In this document: positions 18,952-61,000 of the stretch, piece after piece
Layout: each line of letters starts with the position of its first letter
Position numbering within the stretch: position 1 is the stretch's first letter
Source: Amia ocellicauda
Taxonomy: Eukaryota > Chordata > Actinopteri > Amiiformes > Amiidae
Assembly: GCF_036373705.1 (NCBI RefSeq)
Contig: NC_089853.1
Location: forward strand, 34,252,568-34,316,567
DNA: 64,000 nucleotides
Direction of reading: 5' to 3'
The notes under the pieces: model-generated
What the model saw: only the letters and a program-made list of their open reading frames with translations
The model's database searches: none
Told to the model about the DNA's origin: nothing
Program-made: the position numbers and the translations under genes

Positions 18952-19315
18952 TTTTAATGTATTTAAAATATATTTTCAAACTGCATCATGTAGTATATTA
19001 AAAGTATATTTAAAAAAACATAAATCACAGCCATTTAAAGTATATTGTGTGATGAAGTCTATATGTATATAGAATTTCACAAATAACTGAATTATTGCAT
19101 TGTTGCATTATGATTTACATAAGAGCAAATATACTATATGTTGAGTTAAGAAAGGTAGAAAAGGTGAAAGAGAGCCTAAATAAACTTTTTAAAACACAGC
19201 ATGTGTCAGTGGAAGGCCTTGACAACATACGTGTACAAAACAGACTAGTTTACACAAGAATAGAACAGAAATAGTGAAAACAGAATGAGAAAATGATTAC
19301 TGTTTTGCAGAGGAG
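17421..19315. other. Intergenic DNA upstream of mesp copy 1
   Basis: AT-rich with no coding signal. It contains a (TA)n tract (18907-18949). A T-box-like motif AGTGTGAATTGTCACCTCTAA near 18387-18407 resembles the palindromic site at 27238-27254. Confidence 0.4.
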
Positions 19316-19320
19316 TAAAA

Positions 19321-19516
19321 AGTCACACTTACTTTCCAGGGCTAAGCTTTTCCCAGGGAGCCTGTGGCCTATCTCTGTCCTGTGCTCTGAGACTTTGATG
19401 GCCTGAGAAAGCTTACAGAGGTGTCACTTCACACCTCTAGGTCCTGGATAAAAACAGGGTAGCCAGGCCAGCCTGAATAACCGTCACATTTCTGAGACTG
19501 AAACACAAGAAACAAC
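19321..19516 (+). promoter_or_regulatory. Proximal promoter and 5' UTR of mesp copy 1
   Basis: In order: TCACACTT (19323), TTCCCAGGG (RBPJ-like TGGGAA reversed, ~19350), TCF/LEF-like ACTTTGATG (19392-19400), inverted T-box pair AGGTGT-CACTTC-ACACCT (19419-19436), and TATA-like GGATAAAA (19446-19453). The same order and spacing occur before copies 2 and 3 and at 37460-37520. Mesp genes are known targets of Wnt, Tbx6 and Notch; the site assignments are motif-based. Confidence 0.6.
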
Positions 19517-20263
19517 ATGGATATCTCTGCTGCCCAGCTTAACTACAGCACCCAGTACCAGTGGAACTGCCAGAGTTCTGATTCTGAATTCTACAGCATT
19601 TCCTCTCCTGAGACCATCTCTCCAGCCTCTTCCATGGACTTTTCTCCATCATACCAGCCCTGTGGCTCCACAGTGGGTTCCCACTCTGCATTCCTCAGGG
19701 GAGTTCAGCCTTCAAAGTCCCCTTCTTCTTGTGAGGAAGGGCTGGTCTCCATGCAGCAGTTGAGAAAATCCAGGTCGAAGAATCCCAGCAAGCAAAGGCA
19801 GAGTGCCAGTGAGAAGGAGAAGATGAGAATGAGGGACCTGACCAAAGCCCTTCACCACCTGAGGACCTACCTGCCCCCTTCTGTGGCTCCAGCAGGACAG
19901 ACCCTGACAAAAATTGAGACCCTGCGTCTCACCATCCGCTACATCTCCAACCTCTCCGCACAGCTGGGGCTCAGCGAGGAGGCTCTGTCCCAGAGAAGGG
20001 AGCTGGACATCTTCAGGTGCCACACTTCACCAGAGCAACTGGGGTGTTACCAGTACAACTCCATGCCAGAGTGCTGGGTGCAAGAACAGGCACCAGACCA
20101 GTGTCAGTACACCTCAGCTCCCTGCCCAGTGCAGGATACCAGAATGAGACACTTCCAGTTCAACACTGCACTGGACAACTCTGTGCAAGAAGACATCTTA
20201 AACTCAAGCACAGACTCTTCCTTACAATCACCACATTTTGCAGATACAATACAGTCATGCCAG
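19517..20263 (+). CDS. mesp: mesp copy 1 exon 1
   Basis: 249 codons including the whole bHLH. It ends after CAG at a gtaggt donor (20264). The open frame runs on into the intron, but the downstream acceptor and exon 2 match the Mesp exon structure. Confidence 0.9.
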
Positions 20264-20506
20264 GTAGGTGTGATATTACTCAGATACAGTTTGCAAGTTT
20301 AATTGAGTCTTAAATGACATACAATTATTCATCAACCTAAATATGCATGTATGAAAAGTCTAGTAAGCCATTCACAGATACATTTGTATTTGATTTTGTA
20401 ATCAAATTAGTGAGTGATCATTCTAATCAAACTTTCTTCTTTTTCTTATTTCTAGATGTACAGCGAAGACCTCAGTCAAGTTATTCCACAAGAGTTCTGG
20501 ATTTAA
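19517..20506 (+). CDS. mesp: Mesoderm posterior bHLH factor, mesp copy 1
   Basis: Two-exon gene: 19517-20263 and 20456-20506, giving ~265 aa. Mesp proteins are bHLH transcription factors that set segment boundaries and rostral identity in presomitic mesoderm and act in early cardiac mesoderm. The Ser-rich N-terminus (SPETISPASSMDFSP) precedes a bHLH at about residues 94-148: RQSASEKEKMRMRDLTKALH, then the Mesp-typical loop LPPSVAPAGQTLTKIETL and RYISNLSAQLGLSEE. The C-terminal part has RCHTSPEQLGCYQY and MPECWVQ, shared with copy 2. Exon 2 encodes MYSEDLSQVIPQEFWI and stops. The start ATG follows a short 5' UTR after a TATA-like promoter. AATAAA at 20782-20787 is the likely poly(A) signal. 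Whether it is the mespa- or mespb-type orthologue cannot be settled here. Confidence 0.92.
20456..20506 (+). CDS. mesp: mesp copy 1 exon 2
   Basis: Sixteen codons plus TAA after acceptor ttcttatttctag. It shares the start (M/S)YSE with exon 2 of copies 2 and 3, and an aromatic/acidic EFW near the end comparable with ADYW in copy 3. Confidence 0.8.
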   Translation: MYSEDLSQVIPQEFWI

Positions 20507-27300: not shown

Positions 27301-28074
27301 CTGTGTTCATCTGTAAAGTATGCAAGACAGAAATATTTAGAGGTTAAAAAAATATTGGTATATTGAAAACCTTTTTTGGGCTTTAGTCAAAATCACCTGA
27401 AATTGTATTTTAATCAGGCTGTAATTAATAGATAAGAACACAGCTCCAATGTTCTTACTGTTTACATTTTGGTTTAGACACAATTTGAAACTTATGATTG
27501 TACTGAATTTCCTGATTGTACAAATACAAGTACACAGTTATTTAATCATAAAATGTATAACCTAAATAGTACTATGCCCTTTATTTCCCACAAACAAACA
27601 TAATGCAGATATGTAAATATCAGATTAAACAGAACACTTTCAAACTAAAATTAGTAGCGTTTGCTCACAGTTCAACTATCCAAAAAAGCAAACATAAAAC
27701 ACAATCACATCATTCCTAAATTAGGCAATAAAGCAGAAAGCTATATCCTCTATTTCAGGGGACAAGAACAAGAACAAGAAAAAATATGTAATATATAAAG
27801 ATTATGTTTGTTCTCATTCTTGTACCTGGTTTATGCCATTTCCTTTAAAAGTTTGTCAAAGTGAAAGTTTCTCTTTAAAAATGTGATGTGTCTGTGGAGT
27901 CTCCTGTTTTCCTTAATATATATTGTGTTAAATAATGTGCTACTATAATAATAAGTATACTTTATAGTAATAGAGATTTACTTTTAAGGACTCTGAGCTC
28001 TCTGAATCTCAACCTTTGGCCTGTGTATTTTTTAGTGGTAGCTGGAATCTCACACGTGGCTTAAGCACTAGTCC

Positions 28075-28253
28075 TTCTCAGGGACCCCCTGCTTCCTCCA
28101 TGCTTTTCCCTCTGAAACTTTGATGTCCTGTTACGGCCAGTGAAGGTGTAACATCACACCTCTCCATCCAGGATATATTTAGGTGCAGCCCAGACTTCCT
28201 CAGCATATTCAGCACCTTGACAGAGATCCTTCTCCTTCAACACAACTGCAGCC
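28075..28253 (+). promoter_or_regulatory. Proximal promoter and 5' UTR of mesp copy 2
   Basis: ACTTTGATG (28117-28125), inverted T-box pair AGGTGT-AACATC-ACACCT (28144-28161) and TATA-like GGATATATTT (28171-28180), with the same spacing as in copy 1. From ~28116 onward it is nearly identical to the copy 3 promoter. Confidence 0.6.
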
Positions 28254-29078
28254 ATGGACAGCGCTCTCTCCCAGTTCCTGCTCCAGGCCGACCAGCCGCT
28301 GTTCGACTGTGACGCTCTGCTGGAGCAAACCTGCACCCGGTCAGACTGCGGCTACTACAGCGCCAGTGGCAGCCTCTCCCCAGCTTCCTCCATTGACTCC
28401 TGCTGCTTCTCTCCCCCACCTCTTCAGTGTGGAGCCAGGCCAGACTGTGCGTTTCTCCTCAGCAGCCCAGCTGTCCCAGAACAGCGGCCCCTTGTCCCAG
28501 CACCGGAGAAGAAGAGAAAGTCCAGGTCAAAGTATCCTGGAATAAAACGTCAGAGCGCCAGCGATAGGGAGAAACTGAGAATGAGGGACCTAACCAAAGC
28601 CCTTCATCACCTGAGGACCTACCTGCCCCCTTCTGTGGCACCAGCAGGGCAGACCCTGACCAAGATAGATACCCTCCGACTCACCATGCGCTACATCTCC
28701 CACCTCTCCGCCCAGCTGGGGCTCAGCGAGGAGGTCCTGTCCCAGAGAAGCCAGAGTGATCCACCTCAGTCTCTCTGCCATCCACAGGAAAACATGCAGA
28801 CGCACTTTCAAGAGACCAGCTTATTTCAGCCAGACCTGCTTAATACAAATGCGACATCTCAAGTGGACAGCTTGAGGTGCCACACTTCGCCAGAGCAGCT
28901 GGGATGCCACCAGTACAGCTCCATGCCAGAGTTCTGGGTGCAAGAAGAGAGGCAGGGGTTCTCTCAGGACAGCACTCAGTATTGCTTCACTGAAGACCCC
29001 ATCCACACTACAGCATTTACCATGGGAGCCGACACACATTTGTCAGCACCATGCTTTCAAGACCTGCAGTCATATCAG
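28254..29078 (+). CDS. mesp: mesp copy 2 exon 1
   Basis: 275 codons ending in SYQ before a gtaaca donor. It includes the full bHLH and the SPEQLGC block. Confidence 0.9.
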
Positions 29079-29421
29079 GTAACATTCAACTTCATGTTTT
29101 CCTTTTAATACTTATTCTGATCATTGCTTTGCTTTATCTTTATATATTTGTTTTATTTTATACAAAATATAATTCACCTTGGAAACAACACAGTTGAGAC
29201 AGTAAAACTGTTTTTAAAGCTGCTGATAATTTAGATTCCATCCTGAAAGTTATACTTGACTGCTGTATAAAGCTACAACCTGCTTAATATTCATTATTTA
29301 GCCAATATGTCAAATGCTAATAATGTAAGTTCTGTGTGCAAATTAATACGAGATTTTAAAATATATTTTTCTGCTCTTTATTTTTCAGATGTACAGTGAA
29401 ATGGTCAACGCAAGGAGCTGA
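28254..29421 (+). CDS. mesp: Mesoderm posterior bHLH factor, mesp copy 2
   Basis: Exons 28254-29078 and 29389-29421, ~285 aa. Residues 1-204 are identical to copy 3, including SLSPASSIDSCCFSPPP, a basic KKRKSRSK stretch and the bHLH at about 100-154 (RQSASDREKLRMRDLTKALH, then LPPSVAPAGQTLTKIDTLRL). After residue 204 it instead carries LRCHTSPEQLGCHQYSSMPE and FWVQEE, the block found in copy 1. Exon 2 is short, MYSEMVNARS, and lacks the aromatic terminal motif of copies 1 and 3. Likely a functional transcription factor of paraxial mesoderm; the mosaic structure points to exchange between copies. AATAAA at 29739-29744. Confidence 0.92.
29389..29421 (+). CDS. mesp: mesp copy 2 exon 2 (short)
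   Basis: Ten codons plus TGA after acceptor ttatttttcag. The MYSE start is conserved; the remainder is unlike copies 1 and 3. Confidence 0.7.
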   Translation: MYSEMVNARS

Positions 29422-31992: not shown

Positions 31993-32474
31993 TTAAGTTA
32001 AGTAGATGTATGTAATTGAACATATGTATGTGAATTCATAACGTATAGTCAATAATAATAATAATAATAATATGATCCTACTTTACCTATTCTACAAATG
32101 GAGAATTATTATATTTTTAAAATAAATATTATTTATTTTGTATGTGTATCTGTAGTGCATGTAACATATATATGTTAAATAAATCTGTTTACTTTTTAAA
32201 GGATACTAAATGCCACAAAGAATATACATATTACTAAATATTCCATATTTCTGCTTCAAACTGCAACTTAATTAATATTTTAATATTTTAAATTTGGGTT
32301 TGAAAATGACAGGTTACCATTTCCTTTGCTTCAGGGTCATATATGTAATCTGAATATCTGATGAAACTGAAAAATATTTTTGAATGTGGATTGTATTGCC
32401 TGCCATGAGACTTTCATTTTTTACTTGTGTGAGCTGAATTTGGTTCTCTCCATGAATACTGATTCTTCTTGGTA

Positions 32475-32686
32475 GTGAAAAATCACACATTTATTCTGGG
32501 AAACTCAGTCCCAGGGACCCCCTGCCTTCTCCCTCTTCTCCCCTCAGGAACTTTGATGTCCTGCTACGGCCAGTGAAGGTGTAACATCACACCTCTCCAT
32601 CCAGGATATATTTAGGTGCAGCCCAGACTTCCTCAGCATATTCAACACCTTGACAGAGATCCTTCTCCTTCAACACAACTGCAGCC
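32475..32686 (+). promoter_or_regulatory. Proximal promoter and 5' UTR of mesp copy 3
   Basis: AATCACACAT and TTCTGGGAAACTCAG (RBPJ-like, TGGGAA at 32498-32503), then ACTTTGATG (32550-32558), AGGTGT-AACATC-ACACCT (32577-32594) and GGATATATTT. Upstream of ~32549 it diverges from copy 2 but resembles the orphan promoter at 37371-37400. Confidence 0.6.
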
Positions 32687-33337
32687 ATGGACAGCGCTCT
32701 CTCCCAGTTCCTGCTCCAGGCCGACCAGCCGCTGTTCGACTGCGACGCTCTGCTGGAGCAAACCTGCACCCGGTCAGACTGCGGCTACTACAGCGCCAGT
32801 GGCAGCCTCTCCCCAGCTTCCTCCATTGACTCCTGCTGCTTCTCTCCCCCACCTCTTCAGTGTGGAGCCAGGCCAGACTGTGCGTTTCTCCTCAGCAGCC
32901 CAGCTGTCCCAGAACAGCGGCCCCTTGTCCCAGCACCGGAGAAGAAGAGAAAGTCCAGGTCAAAGTATCCTGGAATAAAACGTCAGAGCGCCAGCGATAG
33001 GGAGAAACTGAGAATGAGGGACCTAACCAAAGCCCTTCATCACCTGAGGACCTACCTGCCCCCTTCTGTGGCACCAGCAGGGCAGACCCTGACCAAGATA
33101 GATACCCTCCGACTCACCATGCGCTACATCTCCCACCTCTCCGCCCAGCTGGGGCTCAGCGAGGAGGTCCTGTCCCAGAGAAGCCAGAGTGATCCACCTC
33201 AGTCTCTCTGCCATCCACAGGAAAACATGCAGACGCACTTTCAAGAGACCAGCTTATTTCAGCCAGACCTGCTTAATACAAATGCGACATCTCAAGTGAT
33301 GTCTGGTCAGCTTTCAAACACAATGCAGTCAAATCAG
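32687..33337 (+). CDS. mesp: mesp copy 3 exon 1
   Basis: 217 codons ending SNQ before donor gtatgt. It contains the full bHLH. Confidence 0.9.
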
Positions 33338-33721
33338 GTATGTTAATTCAATATTTATATAAGTACTCTACAATCTCTTCTGTCACTCCCAATTAATTTT
33401 GCAGTAAACTTAAACTTAAAAGTATATCTATATATCAAATGAACAGTAAAATAAAGTATTTAAATTATCTTCTATATATATATAGTTAGGTTTTAGGTGT
33501 ATAGTGTATACAGTAAGAAACAGCAAATAAAGAAAGTTTAGGGAACAACCTTTGTTACATGCATAACCATATGTAAATCATAATTGTGAGACTTGCCATC
33601 CTCTAATGTTGCTTTGTGTCTTTCTTCACAGAGTTACAGTGAACACTACAGCCTCAGCGAGAGCCTGCCAGCAGATTATTGGTTACATCAGCAACAGGAC
33701 ATGCTTTCTGGACTGTGCTGA
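32687..33721 (+). CDS. mesp: Mesoderm posterior bHLH factor, mesp copy 3
   Basis: Exons 32687-33337 and 33632-33721, ~246 aa. The first 204 residues, including the bHLH, equal those of copy 2; only 3 nucleotide differences were found in the ~750-bp shared tract. Thereafter it reads MSGQLSNTMQSNQ and lacks the SPEQLGC block. Exon 2 encodes SYSEHYSLSESLPADYW then LHQQQDMLSGLC and stop. The shared SYSE/MYSE start and aromatic ADYW tie it to copy 1 exon 2. Role as for the other copies. AATAAA at 33911-33916. Confidence 0.92.
33632..33721 (+). CDS. mesp: mesp copy 3 exon 2
   Basis: 29 codons plus TGA after acceptor tttcttcacag. It is the longest second exon of the three copies. Confidence 0.85.
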   Translation, partial: SYSEHYSLSESLPADYWLHQQQDMLSGLC

Positions 33722-33919: not shown

Positions 33920-36900
33920 TTGAAAAATAATATATGTTGTGTACTGATTTACCTTTTATACATATAAAACATCTGGGGAAAAAGCATACAGGTTTAAATA
34001 TTTTGAATAAACCAAAAAGTGTAAGTAAATTCATGAGAAGATTAAAAAGAAAGGAAAATTCTCCCTCTCTTTCTTTTTTTATTGGAAATAGGTGTGTTTT
34101 AAAATTACACTTCAAGCTATACATTTCCATTGCAGGAATTGCTGTGAATTGCATTAAGTGTTACAATACTGTCCCCCACTATCTTTTTACTGTTGTAGAA
34201 AGTAATCCTCAATTCCATATACATTTAAAATAAGTACCAATTTTGTGTCTAATTTATTTTATTTATATCAGGATCAAAAGTCTTCAGATGTGGCTTAATT
34301 TCAGTTAAATATGTTTACTCTTACTGGTCTGTCAAAATAACAGATCTAGACAATGGGTTCTCATGTTTAAACGAAATAAATAATACAACTGTTGTACATT
34401 AATTCCAAGTTACATACATTTACATTGCCAGCCTATGTATTTGCTCTCGGATAGCCCTGGAAAAATAGCAAAATAGAATTAATTTGGGACAAAGCCAAGC
34501 TGTATTTAGCTGTTCTTAAATCAGTGCATGAGTTCTTCTTTCAAAATGAGAAACAGATGTTCTTTAATAAACAGCCCCACCAGCTTCTAAATTAGTTTAA
34601 CTCAATTATAATTTCTGAGCAATTGTTTTCCCAAGAAAATAACAAGTGTGTCCAATCCATTACTCTTTTTCTATATCTGTGCTCCAGGCCATATGCAGGT
34701 TCAGAAAATACAAAAATACAGTTCAATACAGTTTTAGGTTTAGTAGGTAATAATAAAATAAATATGATTGTTTGCCAAACACAATAGATAAGACTTTATC
34801 TCTAACTCATCCTTATAATCTCTTTAATGTCCACAAATCCCTGGGCCAACAATCACCACAATCAGTAAAGGGAGCTTTCCTTATTTACTAAGAGCAAACT
34901 TAATCACACATAAAAAAAAAAAAAAAAGATTTAATCATTATTACAGGGATGTGTAAATTGGAACCACCATATACCATCCAAAGGTTTCTTGAAATGACCC
35001 CCCGGGTATGTGGGTAGGACCTAAAACTAATTGACACTTAAAGCCCTTTTATTTCAGACTTCAGTAAACAAATGAAGCCTATTAGCTCAGCAAGAGCACT
35101 CCTTAGATATTCATTCACCCCAGACAGCACTAACTCTACACAAATTAGCACTGCTGCTGGTAAACAGGCCAAACGATTGACAGCTAAGACATAATCCTCT
35201 AGATGGCATGCCACATATATATGAACTATTCAAACACACTCACACAGAAACAGAAATGCACCTATTCAACACAATGCACAATAAAATTGTTTGTTGTCTA
35301 CACTGTGATGTTGTGATTTTTGACAGTTATATTTTTAACAAAAAAGGTTAGGGATATCAACCTTAAACAAGTTCATGGACCAAATGAGACTCACACTGAA
35401 TTCACACACACATATGTATGCAAGTGTGGTACATTACTATTATATATATATTAACATTTATAACTGAATACATGCACAGCAGTTTCTGAAAGCTGCTCTT
35501 GATGAGAGTATAACCTGATCATTGTACTGGATTGTAGAGTTCATGTGGTACAGTATGTATTGTACTAAAGTAATTTAAATCAGTTTGCATTCTGTTACAG
35601 CCAGTCCGTGCAGTACAATTTGGAGGTCACGGCATTACAACATGGTATGACAGCATATTGTAATATTACACTTAGAACAATCCTTCGAGATACACCATAT
35701 TTTATACACCTCTATTACACTTAAGGTAACAAAATGAAAGACTTTTCAGTTAATACTTTATTTTATTTTTACAGTTGCAACATCATATTCAGTGAATATT
35801 TATTCAATTAATATAGATATAAAGTACTCTAAAATAAACAGAAACTTAAAACATTCAATTGAGATCAAGGATTCATTTTCAAGGCTCTTTAATGTGAATT
35901 CATGCAGAAACCAGTGAACATGCTCTCACAAGGGCAAAACTCAGAGTGGACTGGCTGGGCAAGCATCAGGCTTCCTACTCAAAGAGAGACAGAACATCTG
36001 GTGATGCTTCAGAAATGTCTTGATTGCTCTGAGATACATTCAAACTATCTAAATTGCTCTGAGTTATACATTTCTCACAAGATAATAAGAAAATTACATT
36101 TTAATTTTGAATTCATTAAAAATGTATACCATTTAAATTCTTAGTCATGTCCTTTGTATTTAGGTCCTGCATTTGTGGCTCCTTGCTGCCCTAAATTCTT
36201 CACTGTTGCTATGTTGGGCAATAATATTATTCATACATTTTAGAAGTCAAAATGTTATATTAAAATGTATTTAATTAACTTAACTCCTTGCATTAATTGT
36301 TAAAATGCATTTATGCACTTTAATTGAAACTAAAGGTTGTCCCAGTAAGTATAAGTATAAGTATACAGTAAGTATAATTTAAAAGGCTTTAGTAAAATAA
36401 TATCTTGTGTTAACGTGAAAATCACCTAGCTCGAATTCACTTATCTACAGGAATTACTGTGTAGTTGTAGATATGTGCATGACTTGCCAGAGTGGATCCC
36501 TGAAAATTAGTGCACATGGCAGTGAAACCTTTGGGATGAGAAACTGGATGTCTGGCCTTAAAGCCCTCACCCAGGATGTCTGCCATGAGACAGGTGTGTC
36601 CCCAAGACTGCCCACTATACAAAGGAAACTCTGTGAGAAAGGGGTTTATGGCAAGGTTGTGATGGTAGAGAGGTGGCTACAGTGGCCCTAAGACCATTGA
36701 AAGTAGGGGCTGTATTGTGTAGTGTGTTGAGTCCATATACAAATTGTTTCTCTCTGATGGGAAAGGCTGGGTTCAGGGGCAGCATAGAAAACTCTTCAAT
36801 CCACAGTCCAATGCCCTGCTTGCTCGGTGTGGAGGGGACTATGTGAAGGTTTGAGCGTGTTGCCTTTGTGATATCATTTTGGCACATAACCTCTGTGGAC

Positions 36901-36948
36901 TATCAAGATAACACATAATTGCTGGAAGTGAGAATAACATTAACAATT

Positions 36949-37004
<56 letters not shown>

Positions 37005-37355
37005 ACTGATTATACTATGGGAAGGACTGAAACAGCAAATTAACAATATGCCGACTTATCTTGCTAGAAAACAGTTTATAAATCTATTAAATACATTCTG
37101 AACATATTCAGTAAAGAGAGAGGGCCAGAGAAAAAGCACACATAATGAGTATGTATATCAATAAACAGTCACTCCTAGACTCCTAGTCAAAACACCAGTG
37201 TACCAACAGTATTAACACCAATGCACCAAATACCCTGTTGAGCTTGGCTGGAATGTGTGAGAGAGTAGCATAATGAGCCTAGAGCAGGGGATCTACCCCA
37301 GAGGTGACAGTAACCCTGCTGTCTCCATAACACCCGCTCTCAGACACGGGGGCCC
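33920..37355. other. Intergenic DNA, no gene seen
   Basis: AT-rich. Open frames at 33934-34233 and 36473-36691 have no recognisable domain. An (ATT)n tract lies at ~36949-36998. Confidence 0.45.
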
Positions 37356-37370
37356 AAAGAAGAGATAGTG

Positions 37371-37580
37371 AAATATCACACTTTCTGGCATGGGAACTCA
37401 GGTACTCTGAAAGGTCAGCTCTTACAGCTGTGCTGTCCTGTCCAGTTCCTCTCCCTCAGACTTTGATGTCTGACTGTGGCCCAGGAGAGTGTTTCTTTCA
37501 CACTCCAGTTACCCATATAAATGTTTAACCTTTTTTTTTAATGAAAACTCAGGATTTGTTTGCATCTCTTAACACAACTT
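37371..37580 (+). promoter_or_regulatory. Orphan mesp-type promoter / relic of a fourth mesp gene
   Basis: AAATATCACACT and CATGGGAACTCAG (TGGGAA 37391-37396), then ACTTTGATG (37460-37468). AGTGT (37488-37492) and ACACT (37500-37504) form an inverted pair starting 28 bp after the TCF-like site, the same distance as in copies 1-3. TATA-like CATATAAATG (37514-37523) follows ~28 bp later, and a 5'-UTR-like TTAACACAACTT near 37569. No bHLH coding sequence follows in any frame. Either a lost mesp copy or a promoter reused as an enhancer. Confidence 0.55.
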
Positions 37581-38900
37581 TACCTCTAGTAGCTCAGAAT
37601 TATATTTTATATTTATTGAGGGAGATTGGCAAATACCTATTGGTGAAAAAAGAGATTACAACCATAGCAATTAAATCATAAACCACTGTGCTCTAAAAGC
37701 AGATATTGTTTTATTTATATAATGCTTTAATGTTTAACTAACATGAGTTGGCACCATAAACTAAGATCAGTCAAATCAGATAGCATTGCTTTATCAAATT
37801 TAATACACTTCTCATAAAGATCTCAAGTTCATATTACATTTTATGATGTTCACAGAAGCCTGCAGATAGTATTATCTACAGAAAATTGCACATCAATGTA
37901 TTTATGTGAAACAGAAATGCTTTGTTCAAGTATTTTCAAGAATTTATGAGACATATAAACATTAAAAGGTCCTTTACTTCAAAACATACCCAGCCGTACA
38001 ACAAACAACACTCGCCTGAAACAACAAACGTTTTTAATCTGATTAAGCTTCAAACCTGGACCTGCGTTAATCTTCTTTACAGAATTGCTCTTTCAAAACT
38101 ACCCATAGGTCATGTTCAGTGTGATAAGCAAATTCTCAAATATACTGCTGAAATGGGAAGCATTTTTTGTGTGGACTGTCTGTCAGTGAGTCTGAATATA
38201 TAACATACCGTTTACTTATTTAAATTTTTCTCGAACACTGTCATAGATAAGTGTAGCTTGTAGGAATTCTACAACATTGAAGGATCTTGCTTTATTTTAT
38301 TTTTAAAAACAAGCATAGTTGCACAGTAGTTGCAATATATTTATGTTAACTTCACTTGGGGCAAATAACATTTTGTTATTTTCTGTGCATTTGTAATATA
38401 TATATATATGTATATATAACAAACAGTACCTTATTCCTTATATTTTAGAATAATCTCTAGCTATAAAAAATTATAAAGAATGATATTTGTTCTCATATTT
38501 ACAATTATTAACATTGTATACAAGAAAGTTCAGTTTCAGAACAAGGATGTTGATTAAAAATAAAATAAATCTACTGCTATAGAAATGTAAATGAAAAACA
38601 ATTAAATTGTTATGGGGAGTCAGCAATTTCATTCTGAGACAATTAAAACACGTAATGATCTTTCTTAAGACTACAACAAAAGAGACATTTAAACCTTAGG
38701 ATGAAAATAGGGGTCTTGGTGGTGGGTTGTGGTTCTTGGTATGTTATGGCTTTCTGGCTGTAGTGACAACTGTCTAACGTATCCCAGTGTCCAGATCACA
38801 GTATTAAAAGGGTTTTCTTCAAGTACAGTCAGTAAGAGCACTAGATGAAGCCACTTTTACCCCTCAACATGCTTGAAATTACTGAAAAAGCACTAAAAAG
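37581..38900. other. AT-rich intergenic DNA and probable ANPEP 3' UTR
   Basis: The tail-to-tail space between the mesp cluster and ANPEP. Minus-strand AATAAA candidates lie at 38291-38301 (TTTATTTTATT on the + strand). No mesp exon is seen after the orphan promoter; the open frame at 37922-38203 is not mesp-like. Confidence 0.4.
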
Positions 38901-38954
38901 ATGTAAAACGCTCAGACTTGCAGATCTTTTATTTACTGAAATCATCTTGTAGGT

Positions 38955-39113
38955 TTAAATGTTTTGAGAAAACGTTTTGAACCAATGCAGTACAGGTGCC
39001 TCGTTTTCCTTTATCCAATTGATGTTGGCTTTTGTCCTCTCCAAAGCCTGCTCCAGAGCGCGTGTGCCTGAGCCAAAGCCCACGTTTTCATTGTCTTTCT
39101 TGAACTGCTCCAG
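38955..39113 (-). CDS. anpep: ANPEP last exon
   Basis: Encodes [40 protein letters not shown] and [12 protein letters not shown], then TAA at 38957-38955. Lies 3.3 kb from the preceding exon, across the intron that carries the DIRS-like element. Confidence 0.94.
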
Positions 39114-42100
39114 CTGTTGAACAACAAGGGGAGGCCATTGAATTCAAGTCATGTGTAACCATCTCAGCCCACCACACAGTTTTCACTTTGCTTATGTTTT
39201 ACGTTTTCCACATTGCACTTCCTAATCTGTGCCCTTCCAATCCGATCCCCGTGCAAAGCAGTTTAATTGAATAATTTAGACTTTTTAATGCCCCAGTGTG
39301 GCCAGTAACGGAGTGGACACTCCCAGAACAGTGCAGGTCAGAGGATGTGTAGAGCCGAGGCTGAGTGGGGTAAATGGGAATTTGTTATAAATCCTCACTG
39401 CCTCCTCTTGCCTGCACTGCTCACTGCTTGTTTATTTGTGTCTGTGTCTCTGTGATTTTATTTATTTCAAACTATTGGCCTTCTTTATGTTGTAATTGAT
39501 TTTAATAACAATAATAAACCAATGTTAAATGTTATCCATGTGGCTGCTCTCTCCCACAAGGCCGCTCCCCTCACTCTCCCCGTAGCCCTCACACCACGAT
39601 TCTGGGTGCTGCTCATGTAATACATTTCAAGATATATTAGGAGCCAATGACCCATTTTCCATGAATGACCTTGAGCACAGGTGAGTCAAGGCAACTGTCA
39701 CTCTTCCTTTTGAATCTAGTGTAGCTGCTTTCAGGACAGTACACACAGCCTTTCCGTCAGTGCAGACTGATCACACAGCCAGCCTCTGATCATAGGCATA
39801 ACCAGGCAGTTGTTAGAGATCACCACACAGGCAATCTTTCAGCAGTGGGAAAATACATTATCGAAAATCAGGGTTATGTGGCTTTGTTTTTGTGGCTGAT
39901 TGGTGGTTTTGTGGCTTTTTAATGATCTATATCGATAAATAAAGTTATACATAAAGTCGGAAGCACTGCCCAATAGGGAGGGGTTTCTGCGCACTTCCGT
40001 AGGAACCCGATCGAAACGTCACTCTATCAAAGCTGCCATTGGCCCCTGAGCACATCACTCAGAACAGGTCCCTTCCCACTTCCTGTTCTATAAAACGTGA
40101 CGTCAGCGCAGGTTTGTCCTCTTTTGCCATTTCACTGGACTCGAGAACATAAGCTCTCTGTGTCTGTGTGTATAAACATTCAAACTGCGTATTTCGGCTG
40201 GCTGGCTCACGTCATAGTGTTGTTCACACATCGTCTTTGTTTAGTGTGTGTTTAGTTATTATTGATAGCTAATCCCGATTCTGTGCCGTCCGCGCACCGG
40301 AGGTGCGGCTACTCTTTCGGTTTCAGTTGCGTTCACAAGAAGAGCCTTTAAAAAATTATAGTTGTGTTTATATAGTGCTCTACATATTCCGACTGCTTGC
40401 TGTGTTGGTTTTTTGTCCACAGGACCTTTTCTTCCACAGCAGGAACGCTAGCAGCGGCAGTAAAATCCGAGGCCCGGCTGCCAGGACGGAGCATCGGTGT
40501 GTCGTAAGAGATCTCGCCCGCGTGAGGTGCTCCTCTGCTGGCTTGCACCCACACATGTGGCCGCGCTGTCTCCTTTAGGCGTTCCCACCGTTTCCCCTTC
40601 TCCCGGTGGTCCTGGAGAAGGTCAGGAGATAACGAGCAACAGTTCTGCCGATAGCCCCTCGGTGGCCTCGCAGATTCTGGTTCCCAGACCTGATTGCCCT
40701 CCTCCACGGAGAGCCTTGGCAGCTCCCAGTGAGAGTGGACTTGTTGTCCCAGGTGCAGGGCACGCTTTGGCACCCCAATCCGGGTCTCCTCCAGCTCTGG
40801 GCCTGGCCCCTGAGCCGGAGCGACTGATTGCCTGGGGTCTAGCCAGCTGTGTGTTATTCAGTGGGTCTGTGGCCCCGCTCCTGCAGGATCAGGGGTTCAT
40901 TGCCACGTTAATGCACGGAAGGCGCACAAGTTGCTTGATTGCCCGCGCCATATTTTGTGCAAGTAGATATACGGCCTCGTTCCTAGATGCACTAGTAGAG
41001 CAGCCGGCCTTGCTATTGTAAGTGGAGGGCGTAAGAGTTGACCTCTATAGCCCCGCTTTGTATATGCTGATTGCAGACAGTCCCCGGTAGAGCGTGACTA
41101 TGGTACTCGCTCCTGGACAGCCCAGCCTGGCCCCAAGGGGCCTCTGTGGCTCCTGTCTGGAGTTGTGTTGCCGAGGCCCCTAGTGGTACACCTCGGGGCA
41201 GGCTCCCTTATCAGCTCGCTGTCTCCTCCCTTGCAATTGCTTGGTTATACAGTAACCGCTCCCCCTTGGGCAGTGCTTCCGATGATAGGTTGCATATGCA
41301 ACCCTAGTTATCTGAAAAAGGAAGCACTGCCCAAGGGTTGCAAGGTCGCACGGGAGTCCTAGCTCCCAGCAAAAGAGGACGAACCTGCACTGACATCACG
41401 TTTTATAGAACAGGAAGTGGGAAGGGACCTGTTCTGAGTGACGAGCGCAGGGGCCAATGGCAGCTTTGATAGAGTGACGTTTCGATCGGGTTCCTATGGA
41501 AGTGCGCAGAAACCCCTCCCCCTTGGGCAGTGCTTCCTTTTTCAGATAACTGGGGTTGCATACGCAACCTATCGATATAGATATATTTCATTTGTGTACT
41601 GTGCTTTAGGTTTTGGAATGAAATGTCTTTTATAAGTACAAATTATAGTAGTAGTGGTGGTAGTTGAGCAAGTATGGCTGTAACTAATGTAGAAACCAGA
41701 GTATATTTCAAAAGAGGCTGTTGGGTGTATATTACAATGATACGTATTACCAAGGCCCTAAGATAGCATAATATGTGTATTAGAATGGTATACCATTGTA
41801 CAATAGGCATCTGTGGTATTGCACTGTACACATAATATTACACCACTGTATCATTATATGGTTCATCAGACATATTTGGTGAGAAAAAATAAATTGCAAC
41901 CTAGACTTCAATATTTTGCAAGTGCTAAACTAAAACCTGAATAAAATAAGGAAATGAGGTGTATGTAACAATGTTAGTTATATATATCTCAGTTACTCTT
42001 TGAAACATACCTGTTTATCCGAATGAGGAAATAAAAGCTAATTTAAGTTGCCAAAAGTATTTTTTAATTTGTTTATTGTACCATTGGGTGTTCTATTCAC

Positions 42101-45100
42101 CTTTTATAAAATAGAGGGAGGAGACTAAATTAACTAAACTTAAATGTTGAAGCAACCATTTCTAATGTAAAACCAAACTAGAACAAATACTAATACTAAA
42201 TACTAATACTTTGATATATTACAAAATATTACAAATTAAATACTGAATACAAAATGAGTTCTGAATGTAGGTGATGTGTACTAAACAAATAAATGGTCTT
42301 TAAAAGGGTTGTCAGAGAGTGAATGCTTTAAGTGAAACTTCCCAAAGCAGAAAATAAACAAGCTTACAGGTTGGGGGATATGGGGAAAGCTTCTGAACGG
42401 CTTACCTGTTGGAGCTCAAACTCAGTTGAAAACCTCCTAGTCACTCCATTTATAAGGTTTGAGAATGAGAAAGAGCCACCTCCATACCTAAAGGTAAGGG
42501 ACAGTGCACATATCACTTTAAAGGTCATTAACTTGTGCTGTTTAAGCACACGGCCACACTATGAAAAGTGTACACATCATCACTTTTGCAAGATTTAAAA
42601 AGGCACTGCAACAGGCCCTGCAGAAACCCACTGAATGTCAACTCTCTTTCCCTCCTTAACTTTTTTTAACTAATTTGTTCAACTTAATTTACAAATGCTT
42701 TACATTTCTGCAAGCAAACAAACCTGGTAAACGTATTCAGCAGTACTGCTTTTGTATATTATGGTTATAATTCACTTAAAAGTGATGCTTCAATTGTTTA
42801 TTTAATGAAAAAGTTGAAGGTTGAAACAGCTGATCAGCACTACTGATTTGATTGGGAGAGATATGGAACTTTATTAATTGACAGGAGATCAACTGTAACT
42901 GCAAACATAATATAAGACAGGTGTAGACAAAAAAGTTACAGCTTGTATTTGTCATTATTATCACCATGAAACGAACCCAATTTAGCAGTGATGTAAATGT
43001 TGAAATGTTTACGTCTTTCTCTTTAAAGGTATGAAACCTATAGTCAAGAGAGGCATAAAGACATGTGTAGAGCAGTGTTCTCTAAAACCTCACAGACCAC
43101 ACTCCATCAGGTTTTATAAGTCTCTTAAAAATCTTCACCTGGAAAAGGTTTAAATTGCTTCATTTTAGTGAAGGAGTAGTTACATTAATTTACTAACTCA
43201 GGTGGAAAACCAGAAGCACTCTGGCCCTAGAGGACAGGATTTTAAATACATTGATCATAAACAGTCTACTCACTGGCCAAAGATCACCTTCCAGTTCGCT
43301 CGTATAAAGTCCCAGGCCAAAGACTGACCCACCACATTGTTGGCAATGCTGATGATAGTTGAAGTGGCATCCTGCTTCCGGATTAAGTTTGGTTTCAGGG
43401 TGTATTGCAGATATCTATATTAACCAAAAGGATATAAATAATCTTAGATCCATCTTTCAGGCATGTACACATCCTATACCTATACTGGTTCATACGTAAG
43501 AGATAGTTTTTTACTGTATTCACTAGTGTATTGTTTCGTTTTGCAATGTAGCTACAGTGAGGGAAAAAAGTATTTGATCCCCTGCTGATTTTGTATGTTT
43601 GCCCACTGACAAAGAAATGATCAGTCTATAATTTTAATGGTAGGTGTATTTTAACAGTGAGAGACAGAATAACAACAAAAAAATCAAGAAAAACGCATTT
43701 CAAAAAAGTTATAAATTGATTTGCATGTTAATGAGGGAAATAAGTATTTGACCCCTTCGACTTAGTACTTGGTGGCAAAACCCTTGTTGGCAATCACAGA
43801 GGTCAGACGTTTCTTGTAGTTGGCCACCAGGTTTGCACACATCTCAGGAGGGATTTTGTCCCACTCCTCTTTGCAGATCCTCTCCAAGTCAATAAGGTTT
43901 CGAGGCTGACATTTGGCAACTCGAACCTTCAGCTCCCTCCACAGATTTTCTGTGGGATTAAGGTCTGGAGACTGGCTAGGCCACTCCAGGACCTTAATGT
44001 GCTTCTTCTTGAGCCACTCCTTTGTTGCCTTGGCTGTGTGTTTTGGGTCATTGTCATGCTGGAATACCCATCCACGACCCATTTTCAATGCCCTGGCTGA
44101 GGGAAGGAGGTTCTCACCCAAGATTTGACGGTACATGGCCCCGTCCATCGTCCCTTTGATGCGGTGCAGTTGTCCTGTCCCCTTAGCAGAAAAACACCCC
44201 CAAAGCATAATGTTTCCACCTCCATGTTTGATGGTGGGGATGGTGTTCTTGGGGTCATTCCTCCTCCTCCAAACACGACGAGTTGAGTTGATGCCAAAGA
44301 GCTTGATTTTAGTCTCATCTGACCATAACACTTTCATCCAGTTCTCCTCTGAATCATTCAGATGTTCATTGGCAAACTTCAGACGGGCCTGTACATGTGC
44401 TTTCTTGAGCAGGGGGACCTTGCGGGAGCTGCAGGATTTCAGTCCTTCACGGTGTACTGTTTTACCAATTGTTTTCTTGGTGACTATGGTCCCAGCTGCC
44501 TTGAGATCATTAACAAGATCCTCCTGTGTAGTTCTGAGCTGATTCCCCACCGTTCTCATGATCATTGAAACTCCACGAGGTGAGATCTTGCATGGAGCCC
44601 CAGACCGAGGGAGACTGACAGTTATTTTGTGTTTCTTCCATTTGCGAATAATCGCACCAACTGTTGTCACCTTCTCACCAAGCTGCTTGGCGATGGTCTT
44701 GTAGCCCATTCCAGCCTTGTGTAGGTCTACAATCTTGTCTCTGACATCCTTGGACAGCTCTTTGGTCTTGGCCATGGTGGAGCGTTTGGAATCTGATTGA
44801 TTGATTGCTTCTGTGGACAGGTGTCTTTTATACAGGTAACGAGCTGAGATTAGGAGCTCTCCCTTTAAGAGAGTGCTCCTAATCTCAGCTCATTACCTGT
44901 ATAAAAGACACCTGGGAGCCAGAAATCTTGTTGATTGATAGGGGATCAAATACTTATTTCCCTCATTAACATGCAAATCAATTTATAATTTTTTTGAAAT
45001 GCGTTTTTCTGGATTTTTTTGTTGTTATTCTGTCTCTCACTGTTAAAATACACCATTAAAATACCATTAAAATTATAGACTGATCATTTATTTTTCAGTG

Positions 45101-58000: not shown

Positions 58001-61000
58001 TGGTTTCATGTCAGTTTCTGTAGTAAGAGATACCTTTTTCCAATTTAAGCCTGGTGTAGGGTAGGCTTAGAAAATGACTTAAATTTAAGACCAAACAGAT
58101 TTTTTTTTTTTTTTAATTTCAGTCTAAGACCTAAAAAATGGTCTTAAAAGCATTTAAGACCTTTTCTGCAACCGGACCCATATTCCTATACATCTTATCT
58201 TGTGTATACTGTATATATCATCTCATTCATAGAATGAATGAATGAATGAAGGATGTACATTTATTTTTAATAGTTTTGTTATTTTTAACCATCATTAAAA
58301 CACAACACAGATCATCTGCTGTAGGTCAGTTAGCACAGATCCTGAAGGATTATTAGGAACACCATACTAATACTGTTTTTGACCCCCTTTCGCCTTCAGA
58401 ACTGCCATAATTCTACGTGGCATTGATTCAACAAGGTGCTGAAAGCATTCTTTAGAAATGTTGGCCCATATTGATAGGATAGCATCTTGCAGTTGATGGA
58501 GATTTGTGGGATGCACATCCAGGGCACGAAGCTCCCGTTCCACCACATCCCAAAGATGCTCTATTGGGTTGAGATCTGGTGACTGTGGGGGCCAGTTTAG
58601 TACAGTGAACTCATTGTCATGTTCAAGAAACCAATTTGAAATGATTCGACCTTTGTGACATGGTGCATTATCCTGCTGGAAGTAGCCATCAGAGGATGGG
58701 TACATGGTGGTCATAAAGGGATGGACATGGTCAGAAACAATGCTCAGGTAGGCCGTGGCATTTAAACGATGCCCAATTGGCACTAAGGGGCCTAAAGTGT
58801 GCCAAGAAAACATCCCCCACACCATTACACCACCACCACCAGCCTGCACAGTGGTAACAAGGCATGATGGATCCATGTTCTCATTCTGTTTACGCCAAAT
58901 TCTGACTCTACCATCTGAATGTCTCAACAGAAATCGAGACTCATCAGACCAGGCAACATTTTTCCAGTCTTCAATTGTCCAATTTTGGTGAGCTTGTGCA
59001 AATTGTAGCCTCTTTTTCCTATTTGTAGTGGAGATGAGTGGTACCCGGTGGGGTCTTCTGCTGTTGTAGCCCATCCGCCTCAAGGTTGTACGTGTTGTGG
59101 CTTCACAAATGCTTTGCTGCATACCTCGGTTGTAACGAGTGGTTATTTCAGTCAAAGTTGCTCTTCTATCAGCTTGAATCAGTCGGCCCATTCTCCTCTG
59201 ACCTCTAGCATCAACAAGGCATTTTCGCCCACAGGACTGCCGCATACTGGATGTTTTTCCCTTTTCACACCATTCTTTGTAAACCCTAGAAATGGTTGTG
59301 CGTGAAAATCCCAGTAACTGAGCAGATTGTGAAATACTCAGACCGGCCCGTCTGGCACCCACAACCATGCCACGCTCAAAATTGCTTAAATCACCTTTCT
59401 TTCCCATTCAGACATTCAGTTTGGAGTTCAGGAGATTGTCTTGACCAGGACCACACCCCTAAATGCATTGAAGCAACTGCCATGTGATTGGTTGGTTAGA
59501 TAATTAGATAATAATGAGAAATTGAACAGGTGTTCCTAATAATCCTTTAGGTGAGTGTATTTAGCTAATATTAATGTGTTTTTTTTTTCACCATGAAGAT
59601 ATCATGTGTCTAATCCTTAGGTAAGTGATTTATTATAAGTTTGTGTGAAGGTTGAGTGAAGTAGTGTCTCTTATTGTGTAAGAAATGTAATTTTGCAGTT
59701 TGTGCAGACAGAACTTGAATGAGGTGACATCTCTTATACAATAAGTGACAGCTTTCATAAAACTATTACCTTATAAATTTTAAAAAAGTGTCAAAAGGCT
59801 GTTTGTAACATCTAGGCTTGATGTAATAAAGAGCATTTACTAGTTCCTTTGGGTAATGGAGAGGCCTACCTTGCTGTAAGAGATGGAATCAAAGAGCTCG
59901 CTGATCTCTGCAGGTGTATTGATCTCGTCTTCTCTGGAGGAGAGGGGGTGAGAGGTAACCAGAGCATCCACAGCAAACACCCTGTGCACATCATTCAAGA
60001 CCAGGAGGTCTTTCTGTGGAAAGACAGGCAGGAGAGAGGGAAGATCAAATACTGATTGGCTTACAAGTATACCCCGTCTCACTGCACACACACTCAACAG
60101 CCTGTTCCAATCTCTTTCACTATATACTTTCAAATGCACAAATGTACAGCAAGGCATTTTGCAGTACTTGTAAGAAAACAACCATTTATTCTGAGGCTCT
60201 GTTTTGGCCAGAATAAGTAAGCAGGCCAGTGTAAAAAGACAACAAATATTGTAAAAACATTAATAATCATAATCATAATCATCATAATGTATTTATTTAT
60301 TAACATACGTCTTATCCTGGGAGACTTACACTTTAGAGAAGTATTTTAAAGTAGTATAAGAGTGCAGTAAAACAACCAATACTAAAATGTAATTTGAAGT
60401 GCAGTAGTACTATCAGTACAAAATACAACAAGCACACATCCTAGTACTAGTACAATGAGGTACCAAGTGTAGTCACTTAACTACAGTTAAGTCCTAGGTA
60501 TGTGTTAAAGGGTCAGTATTCTTTTACTGCTACTTTTATTATGCCAAACATGAATAAATAAATTAGCACATAATTTATAATGATATGGTTCATGGGACAA
60601 TAAATAGTTTCTGTGTCATCTTTAAAAAACTAAAAATCCATGGAAGCATGGCATAGCAGTACTACAGTATTTAAAGTGTTATTTTCTATCAGAAGTAAGT
60701 GATCAGGCAGATATTTAATTATGAAAAGAAGTGTCCCTGTACTCAAAGCTTATTAATAAATACTTTTGCACTTCAGGAAATTAGGAAAAAAGGGACAGCC
60801 AAAAAAGTGTTGATCATATGAACATCTCGGAGAAGCACGTACAATATTCCATGTAGGTTGTACACTATCAGCCCCAAGGTATTCCACATAGGAAGCAAAG
60901 CCCTCATTCAGCCAAAGATCGTTCCACCATTTAAGGGTCACAAGGTTCCCGAACCACTGCAACAAAACAAAGAGAACATTAACAAGAAATTATCCCAATG

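Follow-up and report, generated by a model that had tools for sequence, protein, structure and literature searches.

A mesp-type promoter module without a gene between the mesp cluster and ANPEP of Amia ocellicauda

Mesp enhancers in mouse and the mesp-ANPEP locus of Amia

In the mouse, the T-box sites of the Mesp2 promoter/enhancer (Mesp2-P/E) are located within ~300 bases of the start site (PMC8791502, PMC7473639). When the Mesp2 coding sequence was deleted in vitro and the enhancer was kept, the enhancer acted on Mesp1 and Anpep. This effect needs the Tbx6 sites of the enhancer, and its authors caution that matters may be different in mice (PMC8791502). A palindrome of the mouse element, termed site B, deviates from the consensus but still matters for activity (PMC7473639). 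Four mesp genes are described for zebrafish (PMC6360518). Searches of an open-access library listed nothing pertinent on promoters orphaned by the loss of their gene, or on mesp genes in catfish-like fishes.

The stretch of DNA analyzed here, referred to as the window, comprises 64,000 nt of Amia ocellicauda (GCF_036373705.1, NC_089853.1) with no N, located on a 55.6-Mb contig, and the genome searches covered this single assembly (988 Mb, 385 contigs). The + strand carries three bHLH reading frames of mesp type that start at 19517, 28254, and 32687, and a Pfam HLH domain was detected in each. The exon 1 frame of copy 1 spans 19517..20302, open to the first stop, and those of copies 2 and 3 span 28254..29108 and 32687..33346. 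They are preceded by promoters on the same strand at 19311..19516 (copy 1) and 28040..28253 (copy 2), both recognized by promoter profile and grammar match, and at 32472..32686 (copy 3), recognized by profile searches and module alignments. ANPEP lies on the − strand. Its peptidase motifs are found at ~60.9–63.6 kb, and its last coding exon, at 38955..39116, was identified by translation (stop codon 38957-38955; 5' exon limit not fixed), with 62 residues that align with aminopeptidase N chains (best E = 3e-20). The module examined here, called the block, extends on the + strand from a distal T-box core to a TATA box (37365..37527). It sits in the spacer that separates mesp copy 3 from the end of ANPEP, whose stop codon is 1.4 kb away.

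Several other features of the locus were observed. The ANPEP span contains long transposase-like reading frames on the − strand at 43762-44889 and 58367-59407, which we take to be of the Tc1/mariner type. Copies 2 and 3 share a tract (28104-28870 and 32536-33300) running from the proximal promoter to exon 1, which is mostly 98–100% identical, 92% identical in its first 60 columns, and flanked by sequence that is 40–50% alike in a gapped alignment; this pattern resembles gene conversion acting on duplicates of greater age. The RCHTSPEQLGC-Y segment common to copies 1 and 2 is missing from copy 3, whose exon 1 ends with a short different stretch (33300-33346), which is suggestive of an internal deletion near the C-terminus.

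Similarity, order, and spacing of the block

A profile constructed from the three intact promoters matched 37368-37503 (+) with 15.8 bits (E = 2e-4 in the 64-kb window), where the runner-up outside the mesp promoters scored 6.5 bits. This value was not reached when the window was shuffled 200 times with its dinucleotides preserved (top score 11.6), and 30 cruder shuffles gave a top score of 8.7. The block was also detected with a profile of copies 1 and 3 (E = 5.1e-5) and with copy 3 only (E = 0.0037), but it was not among the window matches of a copy 1-only profile and was not found by blastn with 7-base words. In pairwise local alignments with lax gap costs, the scores were close to noise, and that of the block against promoter 2 was not clearly above background. 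Furthermore, the grammar TCACAC-N(50-80)-CTTTGATG-N(22-36)-TCACAC was searched genome-wide and gave seven matches in the 988-Mb genome, versus three for a reversed control; of the seven, three fall on the mesp promoters and one on the block. The other three (two on contig C1, one on contig C28) have no mesp exon in their 3-kb loci, and the promoter profile was silent at the grammar in each, a single 4.0-bit match lying elsewhere on the C28 locus. A DNA search of the genome with the block itself returned the block as its sole match. The profile matches, the shuffles, and the four of seven grammar matches lead us to reject chance resemblance, and the block is regarded as a homolog of the mesp promoters. 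Of four module alignments, three place it nearer to promoter 3 than to promoter 1, and in the fourth the two are equally close. The upstream flanks of the four modules are mutually unmatched (the best cross-match of a flank near another copy has E = 0.29), and the similarity is therefore confined to the module.

A motif scan located the distal TCACAC, a T-box half-site core (37376..37381), CTTTGATG (37461..37468), which we take to be a TCF/LEF-like site, and the proximal TCACAC (37498..37503), all on the + strand. The same strand also has TGGGAA (37391..37396), presumably an RBPJ-like site, and a TATAAA box (37516..37521). Hence the elements that the initial annotation had noted at 37371-37580 are present at the stated place. 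The distance from CTTTGATG to the proximal TCACAC is 36 bases in copies 1, 2, and 3 and 37 in the block, while the distal TCACAC is offset by −70, −68, and −68 in these copies and by −85 in the block. The claim that every element was kept in order and spacing is accordingly nearly but not fully right: the order and the near-identical proximal spacing stand, and the distal half is longer by 15–17 bases. The remaining four of the eight CTTTGATG occurrences in the window have no same-strand TCACAC partner in the range examined. Further downstream, AACACAACT (37571..37579, +) recurs immediately 5' of the ATG in the UTR of copy 2 and in that of copy 3, which is suggestive only, as the local alignment score of the UTR was matched by 211 of 2000 shuffles and is not significant. 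The T-box palindrome AGGTGT...ACACCT of copies 1, 2, and 3 appears in the block as GAGTGT...ACACTC (37487..37505, +). Both arms carry the same change, and the block therefore retains a perfect inverted repeat at this position.

Missing exon, retention, and relaxation

No bHLH exon was detected between the block and ANPEP, as had been stated from the first inspection, and no mesp exon lies directly downstream of the block. A three-exon profile reached a maximum of 0.7 bits between 33.4 and 60 kb, and tblastn with the three mesp proteins gave no significant match in 33.4–64 kb (best E = 0.083, distant at 49.6 kb) or within 37.3–39.0 kb (best E = 3.9). A displaced or decayed mesp exon was likewise sought on both strands of the window, where no significant match was obtained, and no fourth mesp gene was found genome-wide. 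The genome search with mesp copy 3 gave 16 places at E ≤ 0.001 (42 candidates scored), three of which are the exons of the window; the next best is a 43%-identical bHLH on contig C1, presumably mesogenin-like, and the other 12 are weaker. Since the window's three exons are the only mesp exons among these 16 matches, no moved exon or second cluster is seen in the assembly. The orphan mesp promoter without a gene, as first described, is thus supported by the profile, the genome-wide grammar, the three-gene genome search, and the missing exon signal.

Three further candidates were considered and rejected. A second mesp cluster was sought near the ANPEP paralog on contig C19, where 180 kb (2687 N) gave no tblastn match at E ≤ 1, a best promoter match of E = 1.1 with the three-promoter profile, and a 34-base match of E = 0.018 with a four-member profile. 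A second block beside the ANPEP paralog on contig C4 was dismissed, as the matching segment (39003-39116) is the last exon of ANPEP, and 6 kb at this paralog contained no mesp-like promoter. A transposon at the break was also dismissed: the first 1.4 kb 3' of the block is unmatched elsewhere in the genome, and a dispersed repeat begins near 39150. One mesp cluster was found in the assembly; a second may have been lost in this fish or may be absent from the assembly.

The retention of the block was evaluated by simulating neutral decay from promoter 3 under one simple substitution and indel model, with decays ending at a profile score of 10–22 bits. In an earlier version, all three cores considered were kept in 0 of 4838 decays; the simulation was rerun because these cores had been picked after seeing the block, this time scoring the seven invariant runs (5 bases or longer) of promoters 1–3, a set fixed by the intact promoters. 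The block keeps three of the seven runs, one of them being AACACAA, a UTR-like run of no more than suggestive homology (211/2000 shuffles), and at least three were kept in only 3 of 3611 simulated decays; at least 22 bases in intact runs occurred in 0 of 3611. The exon signal was lost in 2–5% of the decays whose promoter scored at least 15.8 bits and in 11–14% of those near the observed score (12–20 bits), so that the absence of the exon alone cannot exclude uniform decay. Retention nevertheless exceeds that of uniform neutral decay since duplication, which is unlikely, and the module has therefore probably been constrained for most of its history; the same retention is also expected with a late loss of the gene.

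Relaxation is indicated by two observations. Using the Tbx6 consensus (C/T)CACACCT or AGGTGTBR, taken from PMC5471307 and PMC7473639, two sites were counted in promoter 1, one in promoter 2, one in promoter 3, and none in the block. A pattern requiring CACACC matched 15 places, including the three mesp promoters and excluding the block. The statement that mutations had not erased the motif cores hence holds for several of them, while the consensus Tbx6 sites are gone. The second observation concerns private changes: with copy 1 as the outgroup, the four module alignments gave 32–33 for the block versus 11–17 for copy 3 (χ2 4.6–11.0), and 41–46 versus 19–24 when the UTR was included (χ2 6.4–11.2), though the near-identical tract of copies 2 and 3 may distort the rate of copy 3. 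The comparison of the block with copy 1, using copy 3 as the outgroup, was weaker and mostly not significant (χ2 2.2–4.6 for the module, 0.65–4.0 with the UTR).

Origin of the block and comparison with known systems

The best explanation of the block is a promoter/enhancer, now partly worn, of a lost fourth mespb-like tandem copy, a reading that we hold to have about an even chance of being correct. It is suggested by the interval between the block and promoter 3, which is like that between promoters 3 and 2 (4.9 and 4.4 kb by coordinates), and by the closer kinship of the block to promoter 3. While the gene existed, the block would have resembled its paralogs, with Tbx6 T-box sites and RBPJ-like and TCF/LEF-like sites beside a TATA box, and by analogy with the mouse Mesp2 promoter, it may have driven presomitic-mesoderm expression. 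The gene body would then have disappeared, probably when a deletion struck the end of the cluster next to ANPEP, after which the constraint would have relaxed, the consensus Tbx6 palindrome disappearing and several cores remaining. A former gene at the block is not demonstrated, because a relict of its coding exon is absent; either a discrete event took the gene body away or the duplication never included it.

The initial annotation had offered a retained enhancer beside a recent gene loss, and both fit the non-neutral retention. That the block lost its own gene and is still an enhancer, lending presomitic-mesoderm activity to mesp copy 3 (~5 kb away), copy 2 (~9 kb), or ANPEP, is possible and clearly less probable than a worn promoter. 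It would be consistent with motif cores kept beyond the neutral expectation, with a similarity limited to a module whose flanks are unlike the other flanks, and with the in vitro activation of Mesp1 and Anpep by a mouse Mesp2 enhancer devoid of its coding sequence (PMC8791502). The mouse effect, however, requires Tbx6 sites according to the same source, whereas the block has no consensus site; it also has an excess of private changes relative to copy 3, and late gene loss accounts for the same retention. As site B is off consensus in mouse and still contributes (PMC7473639), the altered palindrome of the block need not be dead. A live module whose target has shifted to the remaining mesp genes and/or ANPEP, making the promoter of the lost gene a shared cluster enhancer, is rated a little lower again, as rather unlikely. 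Overall, the Tbx6 palindrome with both of its consensus half-sites lost, together with the surplus of private changes, leans towards gene loss with relaxing constraint.

It is doubtful that the block arose by duplication of a promoter only and never had its own coding exon. The absent exon signal agrees with this, as does the end of significant similarity at the proximal T-box site, the 5' UTR match not being significant (211/2000), but the tandem-unit spacing and the TATA box fit a whole unit, and long constraint would then require a function independent of a gene. Transcription of a non-coding RNA from the block, which was also proposed at the outset, is very improbable: TATAAA lies at about the right distance, but nothing tested favors such a promoter, and an Rfam search of 34000-42000 revealed no known family. 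The least credible reading is a chance resemblance or an old relic decayed neutrally since duplication, where the weak single-sequence matches (E = 0.0037 for copy 3, none for copy 1, none by blastn) and the 11–14% of near-score decays that lose the exon too are set against 0 of 200 shuffles and four of seven grammar matches for chance, and 3 of 3611 simulations for uniform decay.

Read as the remnant of a lost gene's promoter, the block points to a former fourth mesp copy in an assembly that shows one three-gene cluster, compared with the four genes given for zebrafish (PMC6360518). The mouse result predicts that the block, if live, should act on its neighbors, including ANPEP (PMC8791502). 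The block is thus a test case in nature for enhancer re-targeting once a segmentation-gene cluster has lost a gene, and if the module is indeed live and re-targeted, it would be a natural parallel to the engineered mouse allele, which carries the Mesp2 enhancer without its coding sequence. The block shares with the three Amia mesp promoters the order of TCACAC, CTTTGATG, and TCACAC, a near-identical spacing, and the profile similarity, and differs from them in its longer distal half, altered palindrome, and absent exon. In fishes, non-coding elements can outlive a lost paralog as a general phenomenon, and the block is like them in being regulatory and without its gene; those elements are distal and follow whole-genome duplication, whereas the block is a core promoter and belongs to a tandem array. 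It is similar to the mouse Mesp2-P/E, or P2-enhancer, in having T-box sites, including a palindrome-like one, and in adjoining a mesp gene and ANPEP (PMC8791502, PMC7473639), but the mouse element keeps its gene and its consensus Tbx6 sites, and the block has neither.
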